This document shows positions 1 to 20,753 of a DNA stretch of 64,000 bases, one piece after another (within the stretch, counting starts at the first letter, position 1; every line of letters begins with the position of its first letter). The notes under the pieces were generated by a model. It ran no database searches, was not told the origin of the DNA, and worked only from the letters and a program-made list of their open reading frames with translations. The DNA is from Actinophytocola gossypii (GTDB taxonomy: Bacteria; Actinomycetota; Actinomycetes; Mycobacteriales; Pseudonocardiaceae): NCBI RefSeq assembly GCF_025165815.1, contig NZ_JAFFZE010000004.1:248001-312000 (forward strand), in the 5' to 3' direction. The translations under genes were made by a program, and so were the position numbers.

Positions 1-927
1 CACGAGGAGCTCGAGGCCGAGGTGGCCCGGTTCACCGGCCGGGAGAACGCCCTGGTGTTCAGCTCGGGCTACGCCGCGAACGTCGGCACGGTCGGCGCTC
101 TGGCCGGTGCGGGCGACACGGTTCTGCTGGACAAACTGGACCACGCGAGCATCGTGGACGGCGCCCAGCTCAGCGGCGCCACCGTCACCCGTTTCCGGCA
201 CAACGATCCGCGCCACCTGGACCTCCGGCTGGCCGCGACCAACCCGTCCGGCACCCGGCTGGTCGTGGTCGACAGCGTGTACTCGATGGACGGCGACATC
301 GCACCGCTGCCGGAGCTGCGTGAGGTGTGCGACAAGCACGGCGCGCTGCTCATGGTGGACGAGGCGCACGCGCTCGGTGTCATCGGCGCCACCGGACGCG
401 GCATCGAGGAGCACTTCGGCGGCGAGGTCAAGGCCGACATCAAGGTCGGCACGCTGTCCAAGGCGGTGCCCTCCAACGGCGGCTGGATCGTCGGCTCCGC
501 GGACTTCCTCCAGTACCTCAAGCGGCACGCCCGGCCGTTCCTGTTCTCCGCCGCGCTCGCCCCGGCCCAGGCCGGCGCCGCGCTGGAATCGTTGCGGATC
601 CTGGACCGGGAGCCGGAGCGGGTGACCTACGCGCAGCGGGAGTCGGCCAGGTTCCGCCAGGTGATGTCCGACGCCGGGATGAACACCGGTGCCAGCCAGA
701 GCGCGGTAGTGCCGCTGATCGTCGGCTCCGACGAGAACGCCTGGGAGTTCGCGACCGCCTGCCGCAAGGCCGGCGTGGTCGGGCTGCCGGTGATCACCCC
801 GGCCGTGCCGCCCGGTCTCGCCCGGCTGCGGATCGCGATCACCGCCAAGCACAGCCGGGCCGACATCGACTTCGCGATCGACGCCTTCCTCACCGCGGCG
901 CGCCAGTGCCACCTGATCGGGGAGTGA
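1..927 (+). CDS. Alpha-oxoamine synthase (AONS/KAPA-synthase-like), 5' end outside the window
   Basis: PLP-dependent enzyme of the family that condenses an acyl thioester with an amino acid, with loss of CO2, to give an alpha-aminoketone. The reading frame is open from base 1, so the N-terminus lies upstream; 308 residues are visible. Seen: the VDEAHALG stretch carrying the PLP-pyridine Asp and a stacking His region, and GTLSKAV with the Schiff-base Lys encoded at 460-462. The stop is 5 bases before the ketosynthase ATG, so it is the first visible gene of a long operon. Biotin synthesis is unlikely because no bio genes are near. Prodiginine pathways use such an enzyme on a carrier-bound pyrrolyl ketide, which suits the carrier protein and ketosynthase here. 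The amino acid and acyl partners are unknown. Confidence 0.88.
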   Translation, partial: HEELEAEVARFTGRENALVFSSGYAANVGTVGALAGAGDTVLLDKLDHASIVDGAQLSGATVTRFRHNDPRHLDLRLAATNPSGTRLVVVDSVYSMDGDIAPLPELREVCDKHGALLMVDEAHALGVIGATGRGIEEHFGGEVKADIKVGTLSKAVPSNGGWIVGSADFLQYLKRHARPFLFSAALAPAQAGAALESLRILDREPERVTYAQRESARFRQVMSDAGMNTGASQSAVVPLIVGSDENAWEFATACRKAGVVGLPVITPAVPPGLARLRIAITAKHSRADIDFAIDAFLTAARQCHLIGE

Positions 928-932
928 CGGCG

Positions 933-2171
933 ATGGCGCGCACATCGACGAGGACGCCGATCGCGATCACCGGACTCGGCGTCGTCACTCCCGCCGGTTC
1001 CACGGTGGACGACTTCTGGGCGACGCTGCTCGCCGGGCGCTCCACGGCGGCGCCGCTGGAGACCGACGTGGACAGTGGCGAACTCGGCGTCCGCTTCGGC
1101 TGCGCGGTCCGCGGGCTCGCGGACGTCGGGCTCATCCCGCCGAAGGAGTCCCGGCGGATGGACCCGTTCGCGCGCTTCGGCGTCACCGCGGCGCTGAGCG
1201 CCTACCGCGACGCCGGGTCGCCGAGCCCCGACCCCCGGCGCACGGCGATCGTGGTCGGCAACGCCGTCGGCGGCCGGCAGACCACCGACGCGGAAAGCGG
1301 CAACTACTTCCGGCACGGTCCGCAACGGGTGAACCCGCTGCTGCCGCTGGTGAGCATGCCCAACGCGGCGGCCGCGCTGCTGGCGATGCGGCTGGGCTGG
1401 CACGGACCGGCGCTCACCATCGCCACCACCTGCGCCAGCGGCGTGGACGCCATCGGGCACGCGATGCTGATGCTGCGCGACCACCGCGCGGACGTGGTGA
1501 TCGCGGGCGGAGCCGAGTCGACGCTCAGCCCCGTGACCCTGGCCGCGTTCGCCAACCTCAACGCGGTCTCCGCCCGCTTCGAGGAACCGGAGCTGGCCAG
1601 CCGGCCGTTCGACGTGGACCGGGACGGGTTCGTCATGGGCGAGGGTGCCGGCTTCGTCGTCCTGGAACGCGCCGACGACGCGCGGGCCAGGGGCGCGCGA
1701 ACCTACGGCCTGGTCGCCGGCTACGGCAGTACCGCCGACGCGCACCACCTCGCGATGCCGCTGCCGGACGGCTCCGCGGCGGTCACCGCGATGCAGGAGG
1801 CGATCGCCGACGCCGGCCTCGACCCGAGCGATATCGCGCACGTCAACGCGCACGGCACCTCCACCCAGCAGAACGACCGCGCGGAGGCGAACGCGCTGAC
1901 CAAGGTGTTCGGTCCGGGCGGACCACCGGTCACCTCGACCAAGAGCGTGATCGGCCACCTGATCGGCGCGGCCGGTGCGGTGGAGGCGATCGCCGCGGTG
2001 TTGACCAACCAGCACGCGGTCGTGCCGCCGACCGCCAACCACGAACGGCTGGAGCCGGGAATGGAGATCGACGTGGTGCACCGCGAACCACGATCCATCA
2101 CGCCGGGGCCGGCGCTGTCGAACTCGTTCGGCTTCGGCGGGCACAACGCCTGTCTGGTGGTGACCCCCTGA
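933..2171 (+). CDS. Beta-ketoacyl-ACP synthase II (FabF-type)
   Basis: Claisen-condensing enzyme of 412 aa, the usual length for FabF. The catalytic triad is intact: Cys167 in TTCASG, His307 in NAHGTST and His342 in IGHLIG. The ATG at 933 begins the classical ITGLGVVTPAG N-terminus, and the longer upstream frame is a shadow of the previous gene. The stop overlaps the next ATG by one base (TGATG). It does not look like a KS-alpha/CLF pair, so it more likely extends a short carrier-bound acyl chain than builds an aromatic polyketide. The likely partner is the carrier protein at 4572 or one outside the window. Confidence 0.92.
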   Translation: MARTSTRTPIAITGLGVVTPAGSTVDDFWATLLAGRSTAAPLETDVDSGELGVRFGCAVRGLADVGLIPPKESRRMDPFARFGVTAALSAYRDAGSPSPDPRRTAIVVGNAVGGRQTTDAESGNYFRHGPQRVNPLLPLVSMPNAAAALLAMRLGWHGPALTIATTCASGVDAIGHAMLMLRDHRADVVIAGGAESTLSPVTLAAFANLNAVSARFEEPELASRPFDVDRDGFVMGEGAGFVVLERADDARARGARTYGLVAGYGSTADAHHLAMPLPDGSAAVTAMQEAIADAGLDPSDIAHVNAHGTSTQQNDRAEANALTKVFGPGGPPVTSTKSVIGHLIGAAGAVEAIAAVLTNQHAVVPPTANHERLEPGMEIDVVHREPRSITPGPALSNSFGFGGHNACLVVTP

Positions 2172-3061
2172 TGACGACCAGCGCTCCTCCCCCACCGTCG
2201 GGCGGCCAGGCGGTCGCCACGCTCGTCCGCGCCGTCACCGCCGGCGAGCTGGCCGGCTACCGCGACGCGGTCCGCACGGTGCTCGACTCGCCGGCGCCGG
2301 GTGGCGGCACTCCCACGCCGTCGCCGGTGCACCCGTTCGTCCTCGCGCACCAGGCGTTCGAGCTGGCGTTCGGCAAGATCGGCGCGACCAGGGCGGACGG
2401 CACCGAGCCGACGCGGGTCCACCTGAGCCAGGAGATCCGCGTCGACCGGCCACTTCGGCCAGACGAGCGGGTCACCGTCGAGGTCGACCTGCTCGGCGCC
2501 CGCCGCGAGGCCGGCGGGGTACGGGTGGCCCTGCGCGCCATGCTTGTCGGGGCGGACGGGACGCAGTTCGCCGAGCTGGTCACAGGGGCTCTGCTCGGCG
2601 GCGCGGTCACGCCGGCACCGTTCGGCGAGCTTCCGCCGTTTCCGGCGCACCGCGGCAAGGCCACCGGCACCGTCCTGAGCCGACAGTTGACCCGGGACAG
2701 CGTACGGCGGTACGCGGAGGTGTCCGGCGACGACAACCCGATCCACCTCGACGACGCGGCCGCCGAGGCCGCCGGCTTCGACGGGGTCATCGCGCACGGC
2801 ATGAGCGTGCTCGCCATGGTCTGCGAGGAGGTCGTCGACCGGCACGCCGGCGGAGACGCCACGCTGGTACGGGAGATCGGTGTCCGGTTCTCCACCCCGG
2901 TCCGGCCGGGCGAGCCCGTCGACATCACGCTCCAGCCGGCCGGCGACACCGTCTGCTTCAGCTGCCGGACCCCACACGGGCTGGCGTTGAAGGGCGGCTG
3001 GGTGACCCTGGGCGAGCCGCCCCTGTTATCCGCGACCGAAGGCACGATTGCGAGCACCTGA
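2171..3061 (+). CDS. MaoC-like (R)-specific dehydratase, double hot-dog
   Basis: A 296-aa protein with two hot-dog halves. The C-terminal half (about 165-280) carries the hydratase-2 signature: an Asp in SGDDNPIH, the His, and the HGM turn. The N-terminal half (about 30-150) has no such motif and looks structural, as in two-domain MaoC enzymes. Expected reaction: reversible dehydration of a 3-hydroxyacyl thioester. No ketoreductase is visible in the window, so the hydroxyacyl substrate must come from a gene to the left or from fatty-acid synthesis. It overlaps both neighbours by one base, which suggests translational coupling with the ketosynthase. Confidence 0.82.
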   Translation: MTTSAPPPPSGGQAVATLVRAVTAGELAGYRDAVRTVLDSPAPGGGTPTPSPVHPFVLAHQAFELAFGKIGATRADGTEPTRVHLSQEIRVDRPLRPDERVTVEVDLLGARREAGGVRVALRAMLVGADGTQFAELVTGALLGGAVTPAPFGELPPFPAHRGKATGTVLSRQLTRDSVRRYAEVSGDDNPIHLDDAAAEAAGFDGVIAHGMSVLAMVCEEVVDRHAGGDATLVREIGVRFSTPVRPGEPVDITLQPAGDTVCFSCRTPHGLALKGGWVTLGEPPLLSATEGTIAST

Positions 3062-4575
3062 TGGCAGACCTGTTACCGGCCCCCGGTTTCCACGAAGCGT
3101 TCCTCGCCCAGGTCGACACCCGGCCGAACGACGTCGCGCTGGTGTGGCACAGACAGGAGACGACCTACCGCGAGCTGTACGAGATGGCGAGCAAGGCCGG
3201 CGCGCAGCTGGTCGGGCTCGACCTCGGCCCGGACGAGCCGGTCGGCGTGCTGGCCAAGAAGTCCCCCGCCGCGGTCGCGCTGGTGCTGGCCTGCCTGCTG
3301 GCCGGCAGACGGTTCCTACTGCCCTCACCCGCGCTCGCCGAACGCACCCTGACCACCCTGTTCGCCCGCGCGGACTGCCGGTACGCGCTGGTGCCGGACA
3401 GCGACCCGATCCCGATTCCGCCCGCGTCGGGTCCACCCGCGCTGCGGGTGGTCGACCAGACCGACGTCTCGTTCATGCTGACCACGTCCGGGTCGACCGG
3501 GCTGCCCAAGATCGTCCCGCTCAGCCAGTCCGGTGTGGACAGGTTCGTGGCGTGGGCGGCGGACGCCTTCGACATCGGGCCGGGCCGGTCGGTGCTCAAC
3601 TACGCCCCGCTCAACTTCGACCTGTGCCTGCTGGACGTGTGGACCACGCTGGCGCACGGCGGGCGGGTGGTCATGATCGACCCGGCGTACGCGGCCAACG
3701 GGTACCACCTGCTCGATCAGCTGACCCGACACGAGGTGCACGTCGTGCAGGCGGTGCCGATGTTCTACAGCCTGCTGATCTACGGCGTGGTGACCCGCGA
3801 CCCCGAGCGGGTGTTCCCGTCGGTGGAGCACGTGATGTCCACCGGCGACGCCATCCCCGACTGCACGCTCGAACAGCTGCCTGCGCTGTTCCCGTCGGCG
3901 CGGCTGCACAGCATCTACGGCTGTACCGAGACCAACGACAGCTTCGTGCACGAGGTGGACCGGGACACGGCCGGCAAGTCGGGCCCCATCCCGCTCGGCG
4001 TCCCGGTGTCCGGGTCGAAGGCCGAGATCGTCGGCGCGGACGGCGCGGTGCTGGACGGCTCCGGGATGGGCGAGCTGTACGTGTCCACCCCGTTCCAGAC
4101 CACCGGCTACCTCAGCCGACCCGACCAGGACCACCGCTTCGTCCCCCATCCGCACGGCTGGGATGACCGGCGCTACTTCCGCACCGGCGACCTGGTCCGC
4201 CGGGACGACAACGGCCGGATGTTCCTGGTGGGGCGCAGCGACTTCCAGGTCAAGGTTCGCGGGGTCGCGGTCAACACCGCTGAGGTGGAGCGGGTGCTGC
4301 TCGACCACCCCGAGGTCGACGAGGCCGCGGTGGTCGCCACGCCGGACGACCTCGCCGGGAGCGTCCTGCGGTGCGTGGTGCGGCGCACGCCGGGCAGCCG
4401 CCTGAACAGCCTCACCCTGCGCGGCCACTGCGCGAAGAACCTCCCGCAGGCCGCGATCCCCACGGTGCTGCGCATCGGCGACGAGCCGCTGCCCAAGACC
4501 CCCACCGGCAAGGTCGACCGCAACGCCGTCAGTTTTCCCGATGTATCGCCGACCGCACGAGGAAGGGTGTCATGA
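3061..4575 (+). CDS. Stand-alone adenylation enzyme (acyl/aminoacyl-AMP ligase)
   Basis: ANL-superfamily enzyme, 504 aa, expected to activate a carboxylate as an AMP ester and load the carrier protein encoded next. Seen: P-loop TSGSTGLPK near residue 140, A5-like YGCTETN near 285, YFRTGDLV near 373, GRSDFQVKVRG near 395, and the A10 Lys in PTGKVDR near 483. At core A4 the sequence is FDLCLLD, so the position that normally contacts an alpha-amino group is Asp, followed by Leu and Leu. From memory this start of the code resembles prolyl-AMP ligases of pyrrole pathways. The kosinostatin counterpart was proposed to use nicotinate. The substrate is therefore open. It overlaps the carrier gene by four bases (ATGA). 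Confidence 0.87.
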   Translation: MADLLPAPGFHEAFLAQVDTRPNDVALVWHRQETTYRELYEMASKAGAQLVGLDLGPDEPVGVLAKKSPAAVALVLACLLAGRRFLLPSPALAERTLTTLFARADCRYALVPDSDPIPIPPASGPPALRVVDQTDVSFMLTTSGSTGLPKIVPLSQSGVDRFVAWAADAFDIGPGRSVLNYAPLNFDLCLLDVWTTLAHGGRVVMIDPAYAANGYHLLDQLTRHEVHVVQAVPMFYSLLIYGVVTRDPERVFPSVEHVMSTGDAIPDCTLEQLPALFPSARLHSIYGCTETNDSFVHEVDRDTAGKSGPIPLGVPVSGSKAEIVGADGAVLDGSGMGELYVSTPFQTTGYLSRPDQDHRFVPHPHGWDDRRYFRTGDLVRRDDNGRMFLVGRSDFQVKVRGVAVNTAEVERVLLDHPEVDEAAVVATPDDLAGSVLRCVVRRTPGSRLNSLTLRGHCAKNLPQAAIPTVLRIGDEPLPKTPTGKVDRNAVSFPDVSPTARGRVS

Positions 4576-4835
4576 GCAACATCGACGCAATCAAGAAGTT
4601 CCTGATCGACGAGTTCCTCCCGGACGTCAGCGCCAGCGAGCTCGACGTCGACCACGACCTGCTGGCCGACGGGCTCATCGACAGCCTCGGGGTGCTGAAG
4701 CTGATCGCGTGGATCGAGGAGCGGTTCGCCCTCACGGTGACCGACACCGAGCTGGACCCGGACAACTTCCGCAGCATCTCGGCGATCGACGCGTTCGTCG
4801 AGGACTCGCGCAAGCCGACCGCGGCCGGGGCCTGA
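4572..4835 (+). CDS. Acyl/peptidyl carrier protein, stand-alone
   Basis: An 87-aa carrier protein. The phosphopantetheine Ser lies in the DSLG motif near residue 38, in a helical acidic domain ending FRSISAIDAFV. It starts inside the stop of the adenylation gene (ATGA overlap), the usual arrangement for a dedicated ligase/carrier pair. Length and position match the type II carriers that hold prolyl or aryl groups while an acyl-CoA dehydrogenase-like enzyme oxidises them; such an oxidase lies downstream at 7085. No phosphopantetheinyl transferase is visible in the window. Confidence 0.92.
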   Translation: MSNIDAIKKFLIDEFLPDVSASELDVDHDLLADGLIDSLGVLKLIAWIEERFALTVTDTELDPDNFRSISAIDAFVEDSRKPTAAGA

Positions 4836-4840
4836 GACCG

Positions 4841-5875
4841 ATGGGCGGGGTACTGGAAGGGCTGATGGCCGGGCAGGCCGACGTCCCGCTCGAGGACTGG
4901 CGGTCCTTCTGGGACCGGCTGGAGGCCGGTGGGGTCGACCGGGGCGAGGCCGTCGCCCTGCTGTCCTCACTGGCCACCCGGCTCCCGGACCACGGCACGC
5001 TGTGCGGCCTGCTCGCCTCGTTCGACGAGCGGCGGCCGGCGGCGCCCCGGCACTGGGCGAACGCGGTCAACATCGTCGGCACCGGCGGCGGGCCGCGTAC
5101 GTTCAACATCTCCACCGCGTCGGCGTTCGTGGCCGCCGCGGCGGGGGTGCCGGTGGTGAAGACCGGGTCCCGCGCCTACACCAGCAAGGTCGGCTCGATC
5201 GACCTGCTGGAGCGGCTCGGGATCGGGCTGACCAAGTCGCACGCGGACACCGAGGAGTCGCTGGACCGCTTCGGGCTCGCGTTCGCCGGCCAGTTCGTCT
5301 ACCCCACGGTGCTCACCCGGCTGGCCAGGACCATCCTGCCGACCAGCATGCGGTGGTTCGGCCGCTTCCTGAACACCGTCGGGCCGTTCCTCGCCGGACT
5401 GCCGGTGGCCGCGCAGGTCACCGGCGTCTCGGCCGCCGCCCCGCTGGCCCGGCTGCGGCAGCTGACCGGCGAGGTCGAGAACCGCGCGATCTGGTTGTGC
5501 ACCAACGACGTCGGAGCGGACGAGCTGCTGGGGTTCGCGAACAACGTGATCCACACCGGCGGCGGCGAGATCTGGCTGCCGCGCGGAAAGCACACCTCCG
5601 GCACCGGCACGCTGGCCGCGGTGGCCTCGGGCGAGGGCGACCCGGTGGCCGGGTTCCTCGACGTCCTGGCCGGCACGGCGGGCGAGGTCGCGACGGAGAC
5701 GGTCTGCCTGAACGCCGCCGCGATGGCCGTGGCGTCCGGGCTGGTCGACAGCTGGGAGCAGGCCATCGCGGACGCCCTGCGGGCCGTGCGCGACGGCGCC
5801 GCGCTCGACCTGGTGGAGCGCATGCGGTCGCCGCGCCGGCGGGCGGCACCGGTACGGGCGGTGGCGAATGGCTGA
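4841..5875 (+). CDS. Anthranilate phosphoribosyltransferase homologue (TrpD-like)
   Basis: A 344-aa TrpD-fold enzyme, expected to transfer phosphoribose from PRPP to an amine. The fold is clear from NIVGTGGG, TFNISTA, SKVGS-DLLERLG and a DEL metal-site region. Three usually strict features differ: GTGGD is GTGGG, so the Asp is lost, and the KHGNR segment that contacts anthranilate reads KTGSR, so His and Asn become Thr and Ser. This points to an amine other than anthranilate. No trpE or trpG is present. The start is the ATG five bases after the carrier stop, and the 3' end overlaps the TrpA-like gene by eight bases. Confidence 0.87.
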   Translation: MGGVLEGLMAGQADVPLEDWRSFWDRLEAGGVDRGEAVALLSSLATRLPDHGTLCGLLASFDERRPAAPRHWANAVNIVGTGGGPRTFNISTASAFVAAAAGVPVVKTGSRAYTSKVGSIDLLERLGIGLTKSHADTEESLDRFGLAFAGQFVYPTVLTRLARTILPTSMRWFGRFLNTVGPFLAGLPVAAQVTGVSAAAPLARLRQLTGEVENRAIWLCTNDVGADELLGFANNVIHTGGGEIWLPRGKHTSGTGTLAAVASGEGDPVAGFLDVLAGTAGEVATETVCLNAAAMAVASGLVDSWEQAIADALRAVRDGAALDLVERMRSPRRRAAPVRAVANG

Positions 5876-6695
5876 GTTCTTCCCGCGCCGCGGCGACGGC
5901 GGGTACGGCCTGGCGTTGTTCCTCAACGCGGGCGACCCGCCGTTGCCGGTGCTCGAGGACCTCGTGCACATGCTCGACGAACGCGGCGTGGAGTGCCTGG
6001 AGCTGGCGGTGCCGTTCCCCGACTCGGTCACCGACGGGCCGACGATCCGCCGGTCGGCCCGGCGGGCGCTGGACGCGGGCGTGGAGCTGGCGGACGTGCT
6101 CGCGTTCGTCGAGCGGGTGCGGCCCGGTCTGCACCGGCTGCGGATCGCGCTGCTCGCCGACTGGAGCCACTCGGTGAAGCCCCGGCCGCTGGCCGACGTC
6201 GTCGGCGAGGTCGCCGGGTCCGGGGTGGACGGGCTGCTGCTGCACGCGCTGCCGCCGCGGCTGCGTACCGACTACCACGCGGCCGCCGCCGACGCCGGGC
6301 TGCCGATCGTGACCACCTGCTACCACGGCGTCTCGTCGCCGCGGGTGCTGGACGAGGCGGCCGCCAACGCCTCGGCCTACCTGTACCTCGTGGCGCACTA
6401 CGGCCGGAGCGGCACGTCGGCGGCGCCCGACCTGGCCGGGCTCGCCGGCACCGTCGCCACGCTGCGCGAGCGCACCGCGGTGCCCATCGCCGTCGGGTTC
6501 GGCGTGCGCACCAGGCAGGACGCCGAGTCGGTCGCCGGGTGCGGCGCCGACGCGGTGATCGTCGGTTCGGCCGGCGTCGCGCGGGTGGAGAACGCGCTCT
6601 CCGCCGGCCGGGACGTGGTCGCCGACTTCGAGGACTTCGTCTCGTCCATCGCGGCACGGGACGGGGAGTACACCCAGATCAGGACCGGAGGTTGA
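5868..6695 (+). CDS. Tryptophan synthase alpha-chain homologue (TrpA-like)
   Basis: A 275-aa TIM barrel. In TrpA the retro-aldol release of glyceraldehyde 3-phosphate from indole-3-glycerol phosphate needs Glu49 and Asp60. Both are kept here in ELAVPFPD and TDGPTI. The YLVAHYGRSG segment matches the phosphate-side loop YLVSRAGVTG. No TrpB is encoded, so the product would be the free fused heterocycle, as in BX1/Igl-type lyases, rather than a tryptophan. This is an inference from gene content. It lies inside the operon with TrpD-, TrpF- and TrpC-like genes and starts within the end of the TrpD gene. Confidence 0.85.
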   Translation: MAEFFPRRGDGGYGLALFLNAGDPPLPVLEDLVHMLDERGVECLELAVPFPDSVTDGPTIRRSARRALDAGVELADVLAFVERVRPGLHRLRIALLADWSHSVKPRPLADVVGEVAGSGVDGLLLHALPPRLRTDYHAAAADAGLPIVTTCYHGVSSPRVLDEAAANASAYLYLVAHYGRSGTSAAPDLAGLAGTVATLRERTAVPIAVGFGVRTRQDAESVAGCGADAVIVGSAGVARVENALSAGRDVVADFEDFVSSIAARDGEYTQIRTGG

Positions 6696-6697
6696 TC

Positions 6698-7072
6698 ATG
6701 ATCGTCCGCAACATCGACAACGTGCCCACGGTGGAGTGGGGCAACGGCCTGAGCCGCCGCTTCCTGGTCGCCGACGACGGCGTCGGCTACACCGTGACCG
6801 ACACCCTCGTCCGCGCGGGCACCAAGTCCCGCCTGGAGTACCGCAACCACCTGGAGGCCTGCTACTGCATCGAGGGTTCCGGCGAGGTGGTGGAGCTGGA
6901 CGGGACCTCGCACCCGCTGACGCCCGGCACGCTCTACGCCCTCGACGAGCACGACGCGCACTTCCTGGTGGCCAGCCCGCACGAGGACCTGCGCCTGGTG
7001 TGCGTGTTCACCCCGGCGCTGCGCGGCGACGAGGTGCACAGCCTCGACGAGCACGTTTCCTCGGCGTACTAG
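6698..7072 (+). CDS. Ectoine-synthase-like cupin (EctC family)
   Basis: A 124-aa single-domain cupin close to EctC in length and layout: an MIVRNI start, YRNHLEACYCIEG, PGTLYALDEHD-H and LRLVCVFTP. EctC closes N-gamma-acetyl-diaminobutyrate to a cyclic amidine using an iron-bound active site. The Glu, Tyr and His positions of the characterised enzymes appear to be present. No ectA, ectB or ectD is nearby, so osmolyte synthesis is unlikely. Inside a trp-like biosynthetic operon the likely role is forming or opening an amidine or related ring. The start two bases after the previous stop follows a GGAG-type ribosome site. Confidence 0.83.
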   Translation: MIVRNIDNVPTVEWGNGLSRRFLVADDGVGYTVTDTLVRAGTKSRLEYRNHLEACYCIEGSGEVVELDGTSHPLTPGTLYALDEHDAHFLVASPHEDLRLVCVFTPALRGDEVHSLDEHVSSAY

Positions 7073-7084
7073 AAGGCGGTTGTC

Positions 7085-8230
7085 GTGAACAGGTGGAACG
7101 CGGACCAGCGCGCGCTGCGCGAGGGGCTGGCCCGCTGGCAGGACGACCTCAGCGACGGGCACGTCGAGCGGGACGAGGAGGGCGGCTTTCCCTGGGACAA
7201 GTGGAAGCTGATCAAGGAGACCGGGATCCTCAGCCTGCCGTTCGACGAGCGCTGGGGCGGGCTCGGCCAGGACGTCATCACCACGATGTACGTCCTGGAG
7301 GGTCTCGGCGAGGGGTGCCGCGACGGCGGGCTGAGCTTCTCGGTGACCACGAGCATCTGCAGCACCGGCGTTCCACTCGAACAGTTCGGCACCGACGAGC
7401 AGAAGAGCCGGTACCTCCCGCGGATCTGCTCCGGCGAGTCGATCGGGGCGCACGCCATCACCGAGGCCGGGGGCGGGTCCGACGCGATGCGGATGCTGAC
7501 CAGGGCCGAACGTGACGGCGACGAGTACGTGCTGAACGGGAGCAAGACGTTCGTCAGCAACGGGCCCGTCGCGGACGTGTTCGTCGTCTACGCGCGTACC
7601 CGCCCGGACGCCGGAGCGCTGGGCATCACGGCGTTCCTGGTCGACCGGGACACCCCCGGCCTGTCGACCGGCGGCCCGCTGAAGAAGATGGGGCTGCGGA
7701 CCTCGCCGCTGTCGGAGCTGTTCTTCGACGACTGCCGGGTGCCGGCGGCCAACGTGCTCGGCCGGGTCGGCGGCGGGTTCATGGTGATGGACTACGTGAT
7801 GAAGCGGGAGATCCTGTTCTCGTTCATCGTCAACGTCGGCGAGATGCAGCACCGGCTCGACCGCTGCGTCGAGTACGCGAAGACCCGGGTCCAGTTCGGC
7901 AAGCCGATCGGGTCCCACCAGTCGATCGCGAACAAGATCGTCGACATGAAGATCCGGTTGGAGACGTCCAGGAAATGGCTCTACGACACGGCTGAGCGGC
8001 TGATGGCCGGCGAGAACGTCACCGTCGACCTCGCCATCGCGAAGCTGCTCACCAGCGAGAGCAACGTGGAGTCGAGCCTGTCCGCCGTGCAGATCTTCGG
8101 CGGGCACGGCTACATGGCCGAGCACGGGCTGGAGAAGGACGTGCGCAACTCGGTCGCCGGGACGATCTACTCGGGGTCGACGGAGATCCAGTACAACCGG
8201 GTGGCGGCGATGATGGGACTCGGGAAGTGA
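7085..8230 (+). CDS. Acyl-CoA dehydrogenase-family flavoprotein
   Basis: A 381-aa ACAD-fold enzyme with ITEAGGGSDA and a GGHGYMAE-type C-terminus; YSGSTEIQ near residue 367 is the usual terminal signature. In pyrrole pathways (PltE/RedW type) an enzyme of this length oxidises a carrier-bound prolyl group to pyrrolyl. Here it may act on the acyl group loaded by the adenylation enzyme at 3061. It starts with GTG 13 bases after the cupin gene and overlaps the TrpF-like gene by four bases (GTGA). Degradation of fatty acids is unlikely in this context but not excluded. Confidence 0.87.
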   Translation: MNRWNADQRALREGLARWQDDLSDGHVERDEEGGFPWDKWKLIKETGILSLPFDERWGGLGQDVITTMYVLEGLGEGCRDGGLSFSVTTSICSTGVPLEQFGTDEQKSRYLPRICSGESIGAHAITEAGGGSDAMRMLTRAERDGDEYVLNGSKTFVSNGPVADVFVVYARTRPDAGALGITAFLVDRDTPGLSTGGPLKKMGLRTSPLSELFFDDCRVPAANVLGRVGGGFMVMDYVMKREILFSFIVNVGEMQHRLDRCVEYAKTRVQFGKPIGSHQSIANKIVDMKIRLETSRKWLYDTAERLMAGENVTVDLAIAKLLTSESNVESSLSAVQIFGGHGYMAEHGLEKDVRNSVAGTIYSGSTEIQYNRVAAMMGLGK

Positions 8231-8934
8231 CCGGCACCGGCGCGCCGCTGCTCAAGGTGTGCGGGGCGACGTCCACGGCGGATGTCGCCCTGCTCGCCGA
8301 GTCCGGCGCGGACCTCGTCGGGTTGTGGCACGGGATCCCCGGCGGGCACGCGGAGCTGTCCCCGCCCGACGCCGCGGCGCTGGCCGACGCGACCAGGGCG
8401 GCCGGCGCCGAGCCGGTGCTGGTGACCTTCTCCGGTGACGTCCCCGCGCTGGCCGCGGTGCTGCGGCTGACCGGGATCCGGTGGGTGCAGCTGCACGCCT
8501 ACCAGCTCCCGGCGACCGTGGCGGCCCTGCGCGCGGCCGTGCCGGACGGGCTCACCGTGGTGAAGGTCCTGCACATCCGGTCCGGCACCTGCCTGGAACG
8601 CCCCCTGCTCGGCGCGTACGAGCGGGCCGGCACCGACCTGTTCCTGCTCGACGCGCTCACCGACGACGGCCGGGTCGGCAGCACCGGCCAAGTGCTCGAC
8701 GCCGCCGACGTGCTCGCCGCCGTCGAGCACACCGACCGCCCGTTCCTGCTGGCCGGCGGCCTGTCCGAGGCCAACCGGGTGGACTTCGACGCGGTCGTCG
8801 CCCACCCGCGCTACGCGGGCATCGACGTGGACACCGCCGCCAGGGACGCAGGCGGGCGCTTCACCGGCCGCGCGATCCGCGGCATCGCGCGGGCCTGGCA
8901 CACCGCGCGCCACCCCCGAGACGAGGTCGCATGA
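8227..8934 (+). CDS. Phosphoribosyl-anthranilate isomerase homologue (TrpF-like)
   Basis: A 235-aa barrel with the two catalytic residues of TrpF: Cys in KVCG near the N-terminus and Asp in FLLDAL. The phosphate loop region GSTGQV corresponds to GGTG in the family, and FLLAGGLS is the usual C-terminal phosphate site. Expected reaction: Amadori rearrangement of an N-phosphoribosyl amine to the 1-deoxyribulose form made ready for the TrpC-like enzyme. It starts with GTG inside the stop of the dehydrogenase gene and overlaps the TrpC-like ATG by four bases. Confidence 0.86.
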   Translation: MTGTGAPLLKVCGATSTADVALLAESGADLVGLWHGIPGGHAELSPPDAAALADATRAAGAEPVLVTFSGDVPALAAVLRLTGIRWVQLHAYQLPATVAALRAAVPDGLTVVKVLHIRSGTCLERPLLGAYERAGTDLFLLDALTDDGRVGSTGQVLDAADVLAAVEHTDRPFLLAGGLSEANRVDFDAVVAHPRYAGIDVDTAARDAGGRFTGRAIRGIARAWHTARHPRDEVA

Positions 8935-9644
8935 GTCGGTTCATCGAGTCCCTGCGCGCCGCCCGTCGCCCGCTGGTCATGGAGATCAAGCGGCACGACG
9001 GCGACGGCGCCGACCTGCTCGGCGGCCGGTCGGTCGCCGAGGTGCTGGCCGCCTACGAGGCGGTGGACGCACCCTGCGTCTCGGTCGTCACCGGGCGGTG
9101 GTTCGGCGGCACCGAGGACATGCTGCGCGAGGTCGCCGAGCGCACCGACCGCCCGGTGCTGCAGAAGGACTTCATCACCCGGCGCGACCAGGTCGCCAGG
9201 GCCGCGGACCTCGGCGCGTCGGCCGTACTGCTCACCGCGGGGCTGCTGCCCAGGACGAGCATGCCGGTCCTGGTGGAGGCCTGCCTGTCCGCCGGGCTCA
9301 CCCCGTTCGTCGAGGTCACCGGCGAGGCCGAGATCGACGCCGTGCCGCACGCCGACGAGTGCGTGATCGCGGTGAACAACAAGGACATCCGGACCAGGGA
9401 ACGCGACGCGGGTGACATCGGCCGCAGCCTGCGGCTCCTGCCCGCGCTGGTCCGCGGCGGCACCCGGTGCCCGGTCAGCGCGAGCGGGATCGGCGGCCCG
9501 GCGGTCGCGGCCCGGCTGCTCGACGCCGGCTACGCGGGCCTGCTGGTCGGGACCTCGTTGCTGCGCACCGGGAACCTCGACGACTACCTGTCCGAACTGG
9601 ACGGCCGGCTGGCCGACGCGACCGCCGTGGAGGGCACCCCATGA
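8931..9644 (+). CDS. Indole-3-glycerol-phosphate synthase homologue (TrpC-like)
   Basis: A 237-aa barrel. Expected reaction: ring closure of a carboxy-aryl-amino-deoxyribulose phosphate with loss of CO2 and water to form a fused pyrrole. Kept residues are Glu and Lys in MEIKR, Lys in LQKDFI, Glu in PFVEV and Asn in VNNKD. The Glu of the conserved AESGI motif is replaced: the protein reads SASGI. That Glu belongs to the active site of characterised enzymes, so a changed substrate is likely. The usual K(R)ASPS segment is also altered to KRHDG. It overlaps the thioesterase gene by four bases. Confidence 0.86.
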   Translation: MSRFIESLRAARRPLVMEIKRHDGDGADLLGGRSVAEVLAAYEAVDAPCVSVVTGRWFGGTEDMLREVAERTDRPVLQKDFITRRDQVARAADLGASAVLLTAGLLPRTSMPVLVEACLSAGLTPFVEVTGEAEIDAVPHADECVIAVNNKDIRTRERDAGDIGRSLRLLPALVRGGTRCPVSASGIGGPAVAARLLDAGYAGLLVGTSLLRTGNLDDYLSELDGRLADATAVEGTP

Positions 9645-10369
9645 GTTGGATCCGGCAGTTCCGGGACGCGCCCGGTACGTCGCACCGGCTGGTGTGCTTC
9701 CCGTACGCGGGCGGCACGGCCAAGTACTTCCTGCCCTACGCGAGGGCGCTGCACGCGCGCGCCGAGGTGCTGGCCGTGCAGTACCCCGGCCGGCAGGAGC
9801 GCCGGCACGAGCCACCCGTCGACGACCTGGACGAGTTGGCCCGGCTGGTCGTCGACGAGGTGCTGCCGCTGACCGACCGGCCGCTGACGTTCTTCGGGCA
9901 CAGCATGGGCGCCGCGCTCGCGTTCGAGGTGGCCCGGCTGCTGGAGGGCAAGGGGATCGTGCTCACCGGCCTGTTCGCCTCCGGCCGGCGCGCGCCGTCG
10001 CGGCACCGGGTGGAGCGCACCCACCTGCTCGACGACGGACGGCTGCTCGGCTCGGTCCGCGACCTCGCCGGGGCCAGCGCCCGGCTGCCGGGGTTCGACA
10101 CGTTCGCCCGCGGCGCCCTGCCGCTGATCCGGGCCGACTACCGGGCCGCCGAGACCTACGAATACGTCCCGGGGCCCGCCCTGTCCTGCCCGGTCTTCGC
10201 GCTCACCGGCGACGACGACCCGCTGGCGTCGGTCGAGGAGGTCGCGTCCTGGCGCGACCACACCACCGACCGGTTCGAGCTGCGGGTGTTCGGCGGCGGC
10301 CACTTCTACCTCGACGAGCACCGGGCCGGCGTGATCGAGCTGCTCGCCGGCCACCTCTCCCGAGCCTAG
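9641..10369 (+). CDS. Type II thioesterase (alpha/beta hydrolase)
   Basis: A 242-aa GrsT/RifR-like thioesterase. The nucleophile is Ser88 in GHSMG, the Asp lies in GDDDPLA and the His in GGHFYL near the C-terminus. Such enzymes remove stalled or wrong acyl groups from carrier proteins, and some release products. Its place at the end of the operon supports action on the carrier at 4572 or on assembly-line carriers left of the window. The stop codon shares the palindrome CTAG with the stop of the convergent SARP gene, so the two coding regions overlap by four bases with no terminator between them. Confidence 0.9.
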   Translation: MSWIRQFRDAPGTSHRLVCFPYAGGTAKYFLPYARALHARAEVLAVQYPGRQERRHEPPVDDLDELARLVVDEVLPLTDRPLTFFGHSMGAALAFEVARLLEGKGIVLTGLFASGRRAPSRHRVERTHLLDDGRLLGSVRDLAGASARLPGFDTFARGALPLIRADYRAAETYEYVPGPALSCPVFALTGDDDPLASVEEVASWRDHTTDRFELRVFGGGHFYLDEHRAGVIELLAGHLSRA

Positions 10370-11175
10370 GACGCGGTCAGCAGCTGGCCGCTGGTGTGCT
10401 GGCGGTGCAGCACCGGGTCGGCGTTGAGGATCGCGCGCTGCAGCCGCTGGATCCACACCGACGGCTCCAGCCCGAGCTCGTCGACCATCGTGGTGCGCAG
10501 GTCACGGAAGATCTCCAGCGACCGCCACTGCCGGCCGGACCGGTACTGCGCGATCATGAACTGCGCGCACAGCCGCTCGTTCATCGGGAACCGCGCGGTC
10601 AGCTCGGCCAGCTCGCTGAGCAGGACGTGGTGGCGCCCCAGGCACAGGTCGGCGTCGACGCAGTCCTCCAGTACACCGAGCCGGCTCTCCTCGAGCCGGT
10701 TCACGTGCACGCTGAGCGGGTGCCCGGTCGGCACGTCCACCAGCGCCGGCCCGCGCCACATCTCCAGCGCCCGGCGCAGGGTGTCCGACGCCGCCCGGTA
10801 GTCCTCGCGCGCCATGTCCCGCCTGCCCTGGTGGGCGAGCTGCTCGTACCGGCAGGCGTCCAGGTCCTGCGGACCGATCCGCAGCGTGTACCCGGTGTGC
10901 TGGGTGACCAGCACCGTCTTGCTCACCTCGGTCTTCGACATCCCGAGCGCGGTGCCGATGCGCTGTCGTAAGTGGAAGATGTAGGTCTGCAGGGTCTGTT
11001 GCGAGGTCTCCGGGGGCCGGGTGCCCCAGAGTTCCTCCAGCAGGACCCGGACCGACACCACCTCGTTGGCGTGCAACGCGAGCAGCGCGAGCACCTGCCG
11101 GTGCTTGGCCGCACTCGGGGTCATCGCGCGGCCGTCGACGTACGCCTCCAACGGTCCCAGGACGTTGATCTGCAT
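10366..11175 (-). CDS. SARP-family transcriptional activator
   Basis: A 269-aa Streptomyces antibiotic regulatory protein: an OmpR-like winged helix (about 1-95, starting MQINVLGPLEAY) followed by a bacterial transcriptional activation domain (about 98-245). There is no ATPase or TPR region, so it is the short, pathway-specific type. The start at 11175 follows a GGGAGG ribosome site; the longer upstream frame has no support. It is convergent with the biosynthetic operon and divergent from the YcaO operon. It is the best candidate activator for either set; the direct target is not known. Confidence 0.92.
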   Translation of the reverse strand: MQINVLGPLEAYVDGRAMTPSAAKHRQVLALLALHANEVVSVRVLLEELWGTRPPETSQQTLQTYIFHLRQRIGTALGMSKTEVSKTVLVTQHTGYTLRIGPQDLDACRYEQLAHQGRRDMAREDYRAASDTLRRALEMWRGPALVDVPTGHPLSVHVNRLEESRLGVLEDCVDADLCLGRHHVLLSELAELTARFPMNERLCAQFMIAQYRSGRQWRSLEIFRDLRTTMVDELGLEPSVWIQRLQRAILNADPVLHRQHTSGQLLTAS

Positions 11176-11410
11176 GGCCCTTACCTCCCAAGCTCGGACT
11201 GGCCGGAGCACCTGGGAGAACGCTCGCAGAACGATCAGCCGGCCGGCAGTGAGCAGGGCACGATCGGAGATGTGAAATGTCGCGCGGCGCGGTATGACGA
11301 AAACACACCCGAGCGGTGAGGCGAGCACTGGCCGGCGCGGGCGCTGGTCTCGACACTTCTCATTACAAGGCCACGAGGTCGAAAGCCACTCGAGTCCAGA
11401 GGGAGTCAGC
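11176..11410. promoter_or_regulatory. Divergent promoter region between SARP gene and RiPP-like operon
   Basis: The only non-coding stretch between the two divergent units. Two TCGA-containing heptamers lie at 11379 and 11390, 11 bases apart, the spacing typical of SARP binding repeats. A third TCGA is at 11350. They sit within 35 bases of the peptide ATG, which is close for a classical SARP site. I could not define a convincing -10/-35 pair. Confidence 0.4.
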
Positions 11411-11602
11411 ATGCCCGCCGCCGCAACCTCCAACGTCATCACCCGGCTGGCCGCGTTCAGCGCCGACGCCGGGCAGCCCGACCTCCGCCCCGTCGTGGAG
11501 ATCGAGCGATTCGATCACTGGCACAACCAGCCGGACTCCTTACTGGCCCCCACGTCCATCACCTGGGTGGACCAGCCCGTGCCCACCGGGCGCGCGGCAT
11601 GA
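11411..11602 (+). CDS. Putative RiPP (TOMM-like) precursor peptide, 63 aa
   Basis: A small protein encoded directly before a cyclodehydratase fusion gene, with its stop overlapping that ATG (ATGA). The ATG at 11411 follows a good GAGGGAG ribosome site; an upstream ATG in the same frame (11294) is less likely. It has no Cys. The N-terminal part (about 1-37) could be a leader: VITRLAAFSADAG, then a hydrophobic/acidic VVEIERFD. The C-terminal part contains HWHNQ, DSLLAPTSITW and a Pro-rich tail, giving Ser and Thr as the only azoline candidates. No sequence family is recognised. Precursor status rests on position and coupling; it could instead be an accessory protein. Confidence 0.55.
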   Translation: MPAAATSNVITRLAAFSADAGQPDLRPVVEIERFDHWHNQPDSLLAPTSITWVDQPVPTGRAA

Positions 11603-13896
11603 CCGGCACCGAGATCGGCTCCGGACTCGGTCCTGAGCTTGTCGGGTTCAAACGACATCTGCGGGCCGAGGTCGGCAACGGGGTGACCTACCTGTTCTCC
11701 GAGCGGGGTATGACGACCCTGCGCGGCGCCGAGGTCTCCGCGCTCACCCCGCTGCTCGACGGCACCCGCAGCATGGACGAGTTGCTCGATGTCGCGGAGG
11801 ACCTGCCGAGGGAGAAGGTCGAGGCCGTGGTGGCCCAGCTGAACGAGGCCGGGCTGCTCTCCCTGCGCAAGCCGGACGTCGAGCTGACCGCGGACGAGCC
11901 GACCCTCGCCTACTGGGACACCGTCGGGCTCGACGCCGTGGAGGCGGTGTCCGGCACGGTCACCAAGTCGATCGCGGTGTTCACCGTCGGCGAGGTCGAC
12001 ACGGTCTCCGCCTGGTCGGCGTTCCGGGCGGCCGGGCTCGCGGTGACCGCCGGGCTCCCGCTCGACCCGGCGCACCTGGACGTCGACCTCCCGGTCGTGC
12101 TCTGCGACGACTACCTCAACCCGTGCCTCGGCGAGATGTCCGAGGCGCTGCGGGTGGCCGGGATCCCGTGGCTGCTGGCCAAGCCGGCCGGCGCCCAGGT
12201 GTGGATCGGACCGTTCTTCGAGCCGGCCACGACCGGCTGCTGGTACTGCCTGGCGAACCGGCTCCAGCAGCACCGGCTCGCCGAGTCCTGCGCGGTCGAC
12301 GAGCTGGGCCGCCCCGGCCCGATCCAGGCCCCGATCGCCTCGGTGTCGCCGCTTGCCGGGGCCGCGATGGACCTGGTGGTCCTGGAGGCCACCAAGTGGC
12401 TGGCCGGCCAGCGTTACGTGGGCCAGCGCAGTGTCTGGGTGATGGACAGCGTCGACCTGTCGTCGCGGCACCACGAGCTGCGCGGCCGCCCGCAGTGCGA
12501 GCACTGCGGCGACCCCGACCTGGTGCGCCACCAGGCACGCCGCCCGGTGGTGCTCGGCTCCCGGCCGAAGGCGCCCGGCGGGTCGCACCGGGCGATGACG
12601 CCGGAGGAGACCCTGGCCCGCTACCGGCACCTGGTCAGCCCGGTCGCCGGGGTGGTCAAGGAGATCCACCGCGACCGGCGCGGGCCCGCGCTGTTCAACT
12701 CGTACCGCTCCGGGCAGAACGCCGCGCAGGGCACCCGTTCGCTGGACACGCTGCGCGCCACGCTGCGGATGGAGAACGGCGGCAAGGGCGTCACCGCGCT
12801 CGAAGCCGAGGTCGGTGCGCTGTGCGAGGCGGTCGAGCGCTACAGCGGCACCTACCAGGGCGACGAGCAGCGGATCAGGGGCAGCCTGCGCTCGCTCGGG
12901 GACAGCGCGATCGACCCGAGCACCTGCCAGCTGTTCCACGACCGCCAGTACCGCGACCGCACCGGCTGGAACACCACGCACTCGGCGTTCCAGCACGTGT
13001 GCGACCCGTTCGACGACGAGGCGGAGCTGGACTGGACGCCGGTGTGGTCGATGACCGGGCAGACGCACCGCCTGCTGCCCACCGGGATGCTCTACTTCGG
13101 CACGCCGGTGGAGTCGGGCCCGCGCTTCGTGCAGGCCGACTCGAACGGCAACGCGGCGGGCAGCAGCCTGGAGGACGCGACGCTGCAGGCGATGCTGGAG
13201 CTGGTCGAGCGGGACGCGGTGGCGCTGTGGTGGTACAACCGCACGCCGATGCCGGGGATCGACCTCGGCGCGTTCCGCGACCCGTGGGTGGACGAGGTGC
13301 TGGCCGCGTACGCCGGGGTCGGCCGCGCGGTGTGGGTCCTGGACGTCACCTCGGACCTCGGCATCCCCGCGATGGCGGCGGTGTCCGGCCGGACGGACGG
13401 CGAGCGCGAGGACATCATGTTCGGGTTCGGCGCGCACCTCGACCCGAGGGTCGCGCTGCGCCGCGCGCTCACCGAGCTCAACCAGCTGATGCCGGCGATG
13501 GTCGCCAAGGGCGACGGCGACCGCTACGAGTGCGACGACCCGGACGCGGTGCGGTGGTGGCGGGAGGCCACGGTGGCCAACCAGCCGTACCTGCTGCCCG
13601 ACCCGGCGGTGCCGGCGCGGACGCCGGCCGACTGGAGCCGGCCGCCGTCCGCGGACCTGTACGACGACGTGCGGCGGGTCCACGACGCCATCGCCGGACA
13701 GGGCATGGAGGTGCTGGTCCTCGACCAGACCCGGCCCGACGTCGGGCTGCCGGTGGTCAAGGTGGTCGTGCCGGGGATGCGGCACTTCTGGGCGCGGTTC
13801 GGTCCAGGCCGCCTCTACGACGTCCCGGTCCGGCTCGGCCGCCTGACCGAGCCGACGCCCTACACCGAGCTGAACCCGTACCCCATGTTCATGTGA
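11599..13896 (+). CDS. TOMM cyclodehydratase: RRE/E1-like domain fused to YcaO
   Basis: A 765-aa fusion. Residues 1-95 form a PqqD-like peptide-binding winged helix, and about 100-310 an E1/ThiF-like domain with two CxxC pairs (Cys214/217 and Cys300/303) fitting structural zinc. From about 330 to the end is a YcaO domain with CEAVERY, the NGNAAG and LELVERDAVALWWYN blocks, and GFGAHLDP with RRALTELNQ. YcaO enzymes use ATP to activate backbone amides, giving azolines, thioamides or amidines. The C-terminus ends in a Pro-containing NPYPMFM tail, similar to the azoline-forming branch. It should act on the peptide encoded just upstream. A dehydrogenase gene follows after a strong hairpin. Confidence 0.9.
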   Translation: MTGTEIGSGLGPELVGFKRHLRAEVGNGVTYLFSERGMTTLRGAEVSALTPLLDGTRSMDELLDVAEDLPREKVEAVVAQLNEAGLLSLRKPDVELTADEPTLAYWDTVGLDAVEAVSGTVTKSIAVFTVGEVDTVSAWSAFRAAGLAVTAGLPLDPAHLDVDLPVVLCDDYLNPCLGEMSEALRVAGIPWLLAKPAGAQVWIGPFFEPATTGCWYCLANRLQQHRLAESCAVDELGRPGPIQAPIASVSPLAGAAMDLVVLEATKWLAGQRYVGQRSVWVMDSVDLSSRHHELRGRPQCEHCGDPDLVRHQARRPVVLGSRPKAPGGSHRAMTPEETLARYRHLVSPVAGVVKEIHRDRRGPALFNSYRSGQNAAQGTRSLDTLRATLRMENGGKGVTALEAEVGALCEAVERYSGTYQGDEQRIRGSLRSLGDSAIDPSTCQLFHDRQYRDRTGWNTTHSAFQHVCDPFDDEAELDWTPVWSMTGQTHRLLPTGMLYFGTPVESGPRFVQADSNGNAAGSSLEDATLQAMLELVERDAVALWWYNRTPMPGIDLGAFRDPWVDEVLAAYAGVGRAVWVLDVTSDLGIPAMAAVSGRTDGEREDIMFGFGAHLDPRVALRRALTELNQLMPAMVAKGDGDRYECDDPDAVRWWREATVANQPYLLPDPAVPARTPADWSRPPSADLYDDVRRVHDAIAGQGMEVLVLDQTRPDVGLPVVKVVVPGMRHFWARFGPGRLYDVPVRLGRLTEPTPYTELNPYPMFM

Positions 13897-13914
13897 CCAG
13901 CTGACGCACCGCAC

Positions 13915-13948
13915 GTGGCACCCGGCGGCAGCGGCCGCCGGGTGCCAC
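13915..13948 (+). terminator. Perfect 15-bp hairpin between YcaO and dehydrogenase genes
   Basis: The arms 13915-13929 and 13934-13948 are exact reverse complements around a four-base loop. There is no T-run after it. It lies 18 bases after the YcaO stop and four bases before the GGAGG ribosome site of the dehydrogenase gene. It could be a partial terminator, an mRNA stabiliser that uncouples expression of the two genes, or a translation-control element. Confidence 0.7.
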
Positions 13949-13965
13949 TTCGTGGAGGAGTTCCC

Positions 13966-19464: not shown

Positions 19465-20753
19465 ACCACGCGGACCCGGCCACCTCCACAACCGTCACCT
19501 CAGGGGAACGTGACCAGGCCGAACCATCCCTGCCCGACGTGACCAACACGGAAAAGCTCTGGGCGGCGGCACTGCGGGTGCTCGCCTGCGCGACGGTCGG
19601 GCTGGCGCCGCTGGAGGGGTACCTGGCGTCGGTGCACCCCCAGCTGGGCAAGGTGCCGGCCGGGCTGCTGGTGCTCGGGTGGGTGGCGGTGCGGGTGCGG
19701 CACCGGCGGTTGCCGGCGTTCCACCCGGTGCATCCGCTGCTCGGCGGGTTGGCGGCGCTGCTGCTGGCCTCGGCCGCGGTGCACGCGGGTGGGCCGTTCA
19801 CCGCCGAGTACACCGTGCGGTGGCTGCCGTTCCTCGCGCTGACCGTGGTCCTGGCGGACCTGGCCGCGCGGGAGGTCGGGGTCCGGCCGCTGCTGGTGGC
19901 GTCGGTCGCCGGGTCGGTGGTGGCGGGAGCCGGCGCGCTGTACAGCGTCCAGGCGGGCGCGGCGCGGGCGACCGGGCCGATGTCCGACCCGAACGACCTG
20001 GCCTTCGTGCTCGTCGTCGCGGTACCGCTGCTGGTCGCGGTGACGCCGTCCCGACCGCCCACTCGGCACAAGGTACTGGTGGCGGTGGCGGCGGCGTTGT
20101 TGCTGGCCGGGGCCGCGGCGACGTTCTCCCGGGGCGGGGCGATCGCGCTGGCGTGCGCGGTGGGCTGGCTGCTGGCCCGGCGCGCGCTGTCGCCCAGGGT
20201 GCTCGCGGCGGCGGTGGGCGCGGCGGTGGTCGCCGCCGCCGGGACCGTGCTGGTCGCGGGGTCACGGCTGGCGCGGTCGTTGCGGGAGAAGAGCTTCATC
20301 GCCGAGACCAATGTGGACACCCGGGAGCTGCGGTGGCGGGCGGCGGCGCGGATGCTCGGCGAGAACCCGGTGCTCGGTGTCGGGCCGGGCGGGTTCCGCA
20401 GCGAGTACGTCGCCGCGTCGCACAACGCGGAGCTGGCCGAACAGACCCCGGTGGCGCACAACATGTTCCTCGAGGTCGCCGCCGAGCTGGGGCTGCCGGC
20501 GCTGCTGCTGTTCCTCGGGCTGGTCGCCGTGGCGTTGTTCGCCACCGAGGACGCGGTGCGGCGCGGGCGGGACCGGAACACCGTGGTCGCCGTGCAGGCG
20601 AGCCTGGTCGCGGTGCTGGTCGGCGCCACGTTCCTGTCCGAGCAGTACTACCTGCCGCTGTGGCTGCTGGTCGCGGTGGCCGTTGGCCTGGGTTCGCGAG
20701 AACGCGTCGAGAAGGAGGGAGCGGTCCGTGCGGGTGCTCCACATGATCAGTGA
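19461..20753 (+). CDS. O-antigen ligase/Wzy-like polymerase
   Basis: A 430-aa membrane protein with about ten to twelve hydrophobic segments and the Wzy_C signature: DPNDLA, TFSRGG, GVGPGGF and VAHNMFLEVAAELG. Proteins of this family join lipid-linked repeat units or ligate glycans at the outer face of the membrane. The start is GTG overlapping the previous stop. The large loop between about 265 and 340 carries the usual Arg and His motifs. It fits the polymerase of a Wzx/Wzy-type pathway with the flippase at 24070. Confidence 0.85.
   Translation: MNHADPATSTTVTSGERDQAEPSLPDVTNTEKLWAAALRVLACATVGLAPLEGYLASVHPQLGKVPAGLLVLGWVAVRVRHRRLPAFHPVHPLLGGLAALLLASAAVHAGGPFTAEYTVRWLPFLALTVVLADLAAREVGVRPLLVASVAGSVVAGAGALYSVQAGAARATGPMSDPNDLAFVLVVAVPLLVAVTPSRPPTRHKVLVAVAAALLLAGAAATFSRGGAIALACAVGWLLARRALSPRVLAAAVGAAVVAAAGTVLVAGSRLARSLREKSFIAETNVDTRELRWRAAARMLGENPVLGVGPGGFRSEYVAASHNAELAEQTPVAHNMFLEVAAELGLPALLLFLGLVAVALFATEDAVRRGRDRNTVVAVQASLVAVLVGATFLSEQYYLPLWLLVAVAVGLGSRERVEKEGAVRAGAPHDQ

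Follow-up and report, generated by a model that had tools for sequence, protein, structure and literature searches.

What would a bacterium do with four homologues of tryptophan-biosynthetic enzymes packed into one run of genes with a stand-alone adenylation enzyme, a carrier protein and an ectoine-synthase-like cupin? The question is raised by a locus of the soil actinobacterium Actinophytocola gossypii (genome of 7.38 Mb in 53 contigs); the stretch analysed, hereafter the window, comprises the 64,000 nucleotides at positions 248001-312000 of contig C16. Its positions 3061-9644 hold a cassette of eight plus-strand genes for an adenylation enzyme, a carrier protein, TrpD, TrpA, an EctC-like cupin, a dehydrogenase, TrpF and TrpC. 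The kosinostatin producer carries the same cassette, which probably turns glutamine into an aminopyrrole and then, by tryptophan-like closure, into a carrier-bound pyrrolo[2,3-b]pyrrole, the substrate, the intermediates and the downstream use all being predictions. Such a route would revise the precursor assignment (glutamine, through EctC chemistry) in a directly testable manner and, if true, would give a function to some orphan ectoine synthases.

The cassette and its relatives

By sequence comparison, the window cassette is homologous to that at a type II polyketide synthase (PKS) locus of the kosinostatin producer, Micromonospora okii TP-A0468. A contig of this strain (L104) holds all eight genes with the order and strand of the window, and its proteins are identical to those of the window at 52% (adenylation enzyme), 52% (carrier protein), 57% (TrpD), 61% (TrpA), 69% (EctC), 64% (dehydrogenase), 55% (TrpF) and 61% (TrpC); the likeness to kosinostatin proposed in the preliminary description is thus borne out. 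A KS-alpha/CLF pair lies beside the cassette of L104 and a SARP gene is nearby. The records of this strain form series BBZF, and one report ascribes kosinostatin to its cluster t2pks-2 (PMC8698034). From the organism and the gene content, and not from the deposited kosinostatin (kst) entry, we infer that L104 is the kst cluster. Kosinostatin is reportedly no longer made once ksnC3, by its annotation a putative phosphoribosylanthranilate isomerase gene, is knocked out (PMC13099267).

Among 92 distinct relatives, 74 have all eight genes and 71 of these 74 retain order and strand, so that the cassette is more than a chance assembly; the three exceptions are loci of metagenome-assembled genomes (L101, L106 and L131). 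In 81 of the 92 loci the cassette comes with EctC. Pairwise distances of the eight proteins correlate (75 rows, window included; Mantel r 0.67-0.94), and none of 200 permutations reached the observed value for any of the 28 pairs. The 92 loci are those distinct by TrpC sequence among 110, namely 30 (L025-L054) and 80 (L057-L136), the latter kept out of 100 confirmed relatives from a scan with two peptide patterns; L055 and L056, of a weak TrpC class (about 35% identity), were removed before counting. A gene was counted as present at a tblastn identity of at least 36%, and some loci stop at contig ends, where a missing gene is no proven absence. With 92 distinct loci the module is more widespread than supposed, although a phylum-wide draw gave no cassette in 395 other genomes at E <=1e-60, a strict cut-off that makes this only a rough sign of rarity. 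The genes of the kosinostatin producer thus belong to a portable module that occurs, complete or incomplete, with several kinds of partner genes at 92 distinct loci, kosinostatin being the only product that can be named for any of them. The cassette genes could serve as markers in the search for new heterocyclic products and perhaps for a new amino acid.

In a midpoint-rooted FastTree tree of the joined alignment, loci with an alpha-oxoamine synthase (AONS) fall in more than one clade. Separately, one locus (L089, genome G093, 12.4 Mb), titled Rhodococcus rhodnii NRRL B-16535, is probably mislabelled, given its genus label and its place in the clade of Kibdelosporangium loci.

Residue patterns and a proposed glutamine route

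The adenylation enzyme (3061-4575) has the pocket code D-L-L-M-M-T-I-D-S-K, similar to DLLMVTLDSK in L104, and Asp235, Asp330 and Ser331 are found in 79 of 79 rows (78 loci including L104, and the window), with positions numbered after GrsA. Asp235 aligns with the Asp of LgrA domains. Domains described as accepting nicotinate by promiscuity have the code PLPAQGVVNK (PMC8400222). An amino acid therefore fits the cassette pocket better than nicotinate does, and given EctC chemistry, glutamine would be a likelier substrate than proline. The stand-alone carrier protein (4572-4835) has the motif LIDSLG.

The EctC-like cupin (6698-7072) scores 141 bits against NF009806 (cut-off 128). W21, R25, T40, Y52, E57, Y84, H92 and F106, the EctC residues named in PMC6344544 and including the metal ligands E57, Y84 and H92, are retained in 82 of 82 rows; three residues are inserted after W21. 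The same paper gives formation of 5-amino-3,4-dihydro-2H-pyrrole-2-carboxylate (ADPC) from glutamine as a side reaction of H. elongata EctC (PMC6344544). The position of N38 is T in 79 of 82 rows and H in the host's own ectoine synthase; N38-to-T as a sign of a carrier-bound substrate was dropped, since the host enzyme lacks N there too. The acyl-CoA-dehydrogenase-fold flavoenzyme (7085-8230) is nearest to prolyl-carrier dehydrogenases, namely RedW (368 bits, cut-off 650), PigA (361 bits, cut-off 500) and 4irn (312 bits).

In the four tryptophan-like enzymes the two ends of the substrate fare differently. Residues of the ribose chemistry are retained: K110 (92 of 93 rows) and E159 (93 of 93) in TrpC (8931-9644), E49 and D60 equivalents (80 of 80) in TrpA (5868-6695; TIGR00262, 133 bits, cut-off 102), and the equivalents of C7 and D126 (88 of 88) in TrpF (8227-8934). 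At the anthranilate end R182 of TrpC is changed to K (91 of 93) and E210 to A (92 of 93), and the histidine of TrpD (4841-5875) to T or S (83 of 83), its KHGN motif reading KTGS in the window while GTGG is kept. The window TrpC is also shorter at its N-terminus by about 30 residues than solved indole-3-glycerol phosphate synthases (IGPS).

Pocket, EctC residues, kinship of the dehydrogenase and the pattern in the tryptophan-like enzymes together suggest a route from glutamine through a cyclic amidine and an aminopyrrole to a pyrrolopyrrole, all on the carrier. The adenylation enzyme would load L-glutamine on the carrier protein; the EctC-like enzyme would let the alpha-amine attack the side-chain amide to give a cyclic amidine (ADPC when glutamine is free), which the RedW/PigA-like flavoenzyme would aromatise to 5-aminopyrrole-2-carbonyl-carrier. 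TrpD would then add phosphoribose to the exocyclic amine, TrpF would form the Amadori ketone, TrpC would form the second ring at the adjacent ring carbon with loss of H instead of CO2, and TrpA would remove glyceraldehyde phosphate, leaving the carrier loaded with a pyrrolo[2,3-b]pyrrole-2-carbonyl unit, whose two fused rings resemble indole. In the window cluster a FabF-like ketosynthase (KS) and AONS might extend the unit and couple it with an amino acid, as in prodiginine pathways, which is the least certain step. Kosinostatin, C33H32N2O10, has a calculated value of 617.213 and a reported one of 617.213, and both its nitrogens could come from one glutamine. No report of an EctC-based pyrrole route was found in open-licence papers.

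Several points weigh against the glutamine route. To our knowledge DLLMxTxDSK corresponds to no glutamine code, nor to that of any known glutamine domain. R182, E210 and the TrpD histidine are residues that we take to hold anthranilate, and a literature search found no source for the role of the histidine. Model scores of RedW, PigA, TrpD, TrpF and TrpC lie under the curated cut-offs, as is expected of divergent members but also of a different function. The change at N38 says nothing on the substrate; what becomes of the unit in the window cluster is guessed from the likeness to prodiginine pathways; and L104 is equated with kst by organism and gene content. Ma et al. in 2013 reportedly described a nicotinate origin, and nicotinic acid and ribose are given as kosinostatin precursors in a review. 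The glutamine route leaves unexplained that kstB7 deletion is reported to lower production, although the gene is missing from a related cluster (PMC7918784). Intact incorporation of labelled nicotinate, if it occurs, would make the glutamine step wrong.

Other precursors and primary metabolism

As published, the route begins with nicotinic acid, loaded by the adenylation enzyme and then contracted to a pyrrole before the tryptophan-like steps; we consider this unlikely for the cassette. Table 5 of PMC7918784 assigns loading of nicotinic acid and its conversion to pyrrole to the kstB group, and the joining of pyrrole with phosphoribosyl pyrophosphate into pyrrolopyrrole to kstC, and the lowered kosinostatin production after kstB7 deletion, credited there to Ma et al., also speaks for this route. 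The same paper, however, finds the proposed deformylase KstB7 absent from the M. robiginosa cluster and judges it unlikely to take part (PMC7918784). A nicotinate origin also sits badly with the pocket, because Asp235, present in every row including that of the producer, is typical of amino-acid-activating domains and nicotinate has no amine for it. Nor does any cassette gene clearly encode an enzyme that could bring in the second nitrogen by amination. The antiSMASH class given for the M. robiginosa kosinostatin region includes 'ectoine', which fits the EctC-like gene.

A second alternative, resembling prodigiosin biosynthesis, starts from proline: prolyl-carrier would become pyrrolyl-carrier, and the EctC-like and tryptophan-like enzymes would act on another substrate. 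The nearness of the dehydrogenase to RedW and PigA speaks for it, as do the AONS, KS, KAS III, acyl carrier protein (ACP) and phosphopantetheinyl transferase of the window cluster, which resemble those of the red cluster. However, a pyrrole-2-carboxyl group offers TrpD no exocyclic amine, and the EctC accompaniment in 81 of 92 loci would go unexplained, so that we give this route little credence.

As to primary metabolism, canonical paralogues lie elsewhere in the host: trpC and trpA on C50, with a Chorismate_bind match and, by our reading, trpB; trpD on C46; and the ectoine synthase gene ectC on C28 beside genes that we read as ectB- and ectD-like. No ectA- or ectB-like gene was seen among the genes scanned at the cassette locus. 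The host's own TrpB gave no tblastn match in the window or in stretches L003 (the left flank) and L162; its TrpE gave none in the window or L003 and a single weak one in L162 (31.6%, 74 bits), about 22 kb left of the window. Against 297 genomes of the family, the window TrpC gave, among the matches listed and counted by hand from the match table, 30 matches spread over 25 genomes, the host among them, at 217.6-501.8 bits; below these came one partial match of 112 bits and then values of at most 85.5 bits. The cassette TrpC group, scoring 217.6-359.8 bits across the family, thus stands apart, and its best matches do not lie in ordinary trp operons. A genome-wide PF00697 search gave no match in the host, the window TrpF included, and so misses divergent members.

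The weak TrpE match concerns a divergent fused TrpE/G-like chorismate enzyme (L162:9597-11705). This fusion was considered as a source of anthranilate, but tblastn over about 20 kb to the left of the cluster did not find it in either of two relatives (G031 and G200), and it was therefore left out of the cluster.

A duplicated trp set working on anthranilate in ordinary tryptophan or auxin metabolism, though favoured by a TrpA above its NCBIfam cut-off and by the fusion to the left, is very improbable, and an ordinary trp operon was rejected, in view of the separate canonical trp genes, the distant cassette TrpC, the changed anthranilate-end residues and the missing fusion in the left flanks of both relatives.

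Partner genes and known systems

The cassette of the window is embedded in a run of 12 plus-strand genes that starts with AONS and closes at 10369 with a type II thioesterase, at neighbour distances of -8 to +12 bases as computed with start codons chosen in this analysis. Pfam matches over the run are PLP aminotransferase fold, ketosynthase, MaoC, AMP-binding, PP-binding, Glycos_transf_3, Trp_syntA, Ectoine_synth, acyl-CoA dehydrogenase, PRAI (weak, 37.5 bits), IGPS and thioesterase. This agrees with the preliminary description of a one-directional run with overlaps or very short gaps, in which TrpD, TrpA, TrpF and TrpC homologues are joined to a ketosynthase, MaoC, AONS and an EctC-like cupin while TrpB, TrpE and TrpG are missing among the 12 genes (TrpG was sought in these only).

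AONS, similar to BioF and serine palmitoyltransferase (1-927; TIGR00858, 385 bits, below the cut-off of 426; motif GTLSKA), begins outside the window, about 300 bases to the left (L003, about 17707). It is followed by the FabF-like KS (933-2171), with Cys and two His motifs, which scores 443 bits against TIGR03150 (cut-off 494) and 438 bits against NF005589 (cut-off 387), and by a MaoC-type dehydratase (2171-3061; PF01575, 84 bits). The thioesterase (9641-10369), assigned by its domain match, has a close match only in a sister Actinophytocola, with matches of about 30% in three other loci, and a SARP-type regulator lies on the minus strand (10366-11442; BTAD, 136.5 bits). L003 holds, in order, a phosphopantetheinyl transferase, a cyclase/hydrolase fusion, a cytokinin-dehydrogenase-like FAD oxidase, an FMO-like monooxygenase, an ACP-like protein (our reading, without a Pfam match), KAS III, FabG, a PLP decarboxylase and a regulator that we label AfsR-like. 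Most of these genes also lie beside the cassette in each of seven further genomes with fetched flanks and in L079 and L107, and are therefore taken as cluster members. A YcaO cyclodehydratase and a ThcOx-like oxidase (11599-15396) adjoin the cluster, likewise in the sister A. xinjiangensis, and a YcaO match is also near the cassette of Nocardiopsis alkaliphila (L085); with YcaO matches in two of the 80 loci L057-L136 (L092 and L085), they were not counted as members. Further on, GC is raised (0.77-0.78) and AT skew is strong at 20000-28000, a region that opens on the left with a glycosyltransferase gene.

Whether a type II PKS lies to the left had also been raised. No KS-alpha/CLF match was found in 97 kb (C16:215001-312000), where tblastn with KS-alpha and CLF of L052 found only the one FabF-like KS. 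The partners in the window, AONS, FabF-like KS, MaoC, KAS III and FabG, point to an undescribed natural product, and no product of AONS-type clusters was found in papers. Within the fetched stretches of the 92 loci, AONS and KS occur together in 38 and KS without AONS in 6, a transglutaminase-fold gene with a TrpB-like enzyme, TrpB2, in 10, the former alone in 9 and the latter alone in 4, a Glu/Leu-dehydrogenase-like gene in 6, type II KS-alpha/CLF in 3, and none of those sought in 16. Identities of 50-60% were required here for KS, AONS, KS-alpha, CLF, the transglutaminase-fold gene, TrpB2 and the dehydrogenase-like gene, and as thresholds vary among counts, small differences arise (AONS 36, 36 and 38). 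Among Kibdelosporangium-type loci listed as having KS but no AONS, the two genomes with fetched flanks (G162 and G093) do have an AONS farther off in the same region.

TrpB2 is a PLP enzyme encoded just upstream of TrpF or TrpC in 14 of the 92 loci (L130:7312-9326; L039, L044, L046, L049, L051, L090, L108, L116, L118, L119, L125, L135 and L136). Those of L130 and L051 exceed NCBIfam TrpB-like cut-offs (L130: 700 bits against 366 and 605 against 519), and the other twelve are at least 71% identical to that of L130 by tblastn. Ten of the 14 loci have an adjoining transglutaminase-fold gene; L125, L135 and L136 have additional adenylation domains of nonribosomal peptide synthetase (NRPS) type next to them, one L135 protein having three adenylation and two condensation domains. 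The reduced cassettes of L116, L119 and L046 retain the carrier protein, TrpD, TrpB2, TrpF and TrpC, while the adenylation enzyme, TrpA, EctC and the dehydrogenase gave no match within the fetched stretch. The TrpB2 relatives may make a tryptophan look-alike, to judge from their genes. It is quite possible, though not the likelier case, that bacteria run a second, carrier-bound tryptophan-like pathway in which glutamine cyclised by EctC-type chemistry yields a 2-aminopyrrole and the second ring is added by retooled TrpD, TrpF, TrpC and TrpA, the unit passing to a type II PKS (kosinostatin), to AONS lines (the window) or, with TrpB2 and serine, to pyrrolopyrrolyl-alanine, a natural tryptophan isostere maybe used by NRPSs. 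Some of the orphan EctC proteins would then have a role. No report of pyrrolopyrrolyl-alanine was found in open-licence papers, no search having been aimed at that name.

Primary tryptophan biosynthesis shares the four enzyme families and, as predicted, the ribose chemistry with the cassette, but differs in its TrpE, TrpG and TrpB and in its anthranilate-end residues. With ectoine synthase the cupin shares the metal ligands, most substrate residues and a score above the NCBIfam cut-off, whereas the setting lacks the ectA- and ectB-like genes of an ectoine cluster. Prodiginine clusters (red/pig), to go by the red gene set, have the stand-alone adenylation enzyme, the carrier, a prolyl-carrier-dehydrogenase-like enzyme, KS and AONS in common with the window cluster, which adds EctC and the four tryptophan-like enzymes. 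The kst cluster, represented by L104, has the same eight genes at 52-69% identity in the same order and strand, with a SARP gene nearby, but couples them to KS-alpha and CLF and, according to the literature, to octose genes, in place of which the window cluster has AONS, KS, MaoC, KAS III, FabG, an ACP-like protein, an FMO-like monooxygenase, an FAD oxidase and a PLP decarboxylase.

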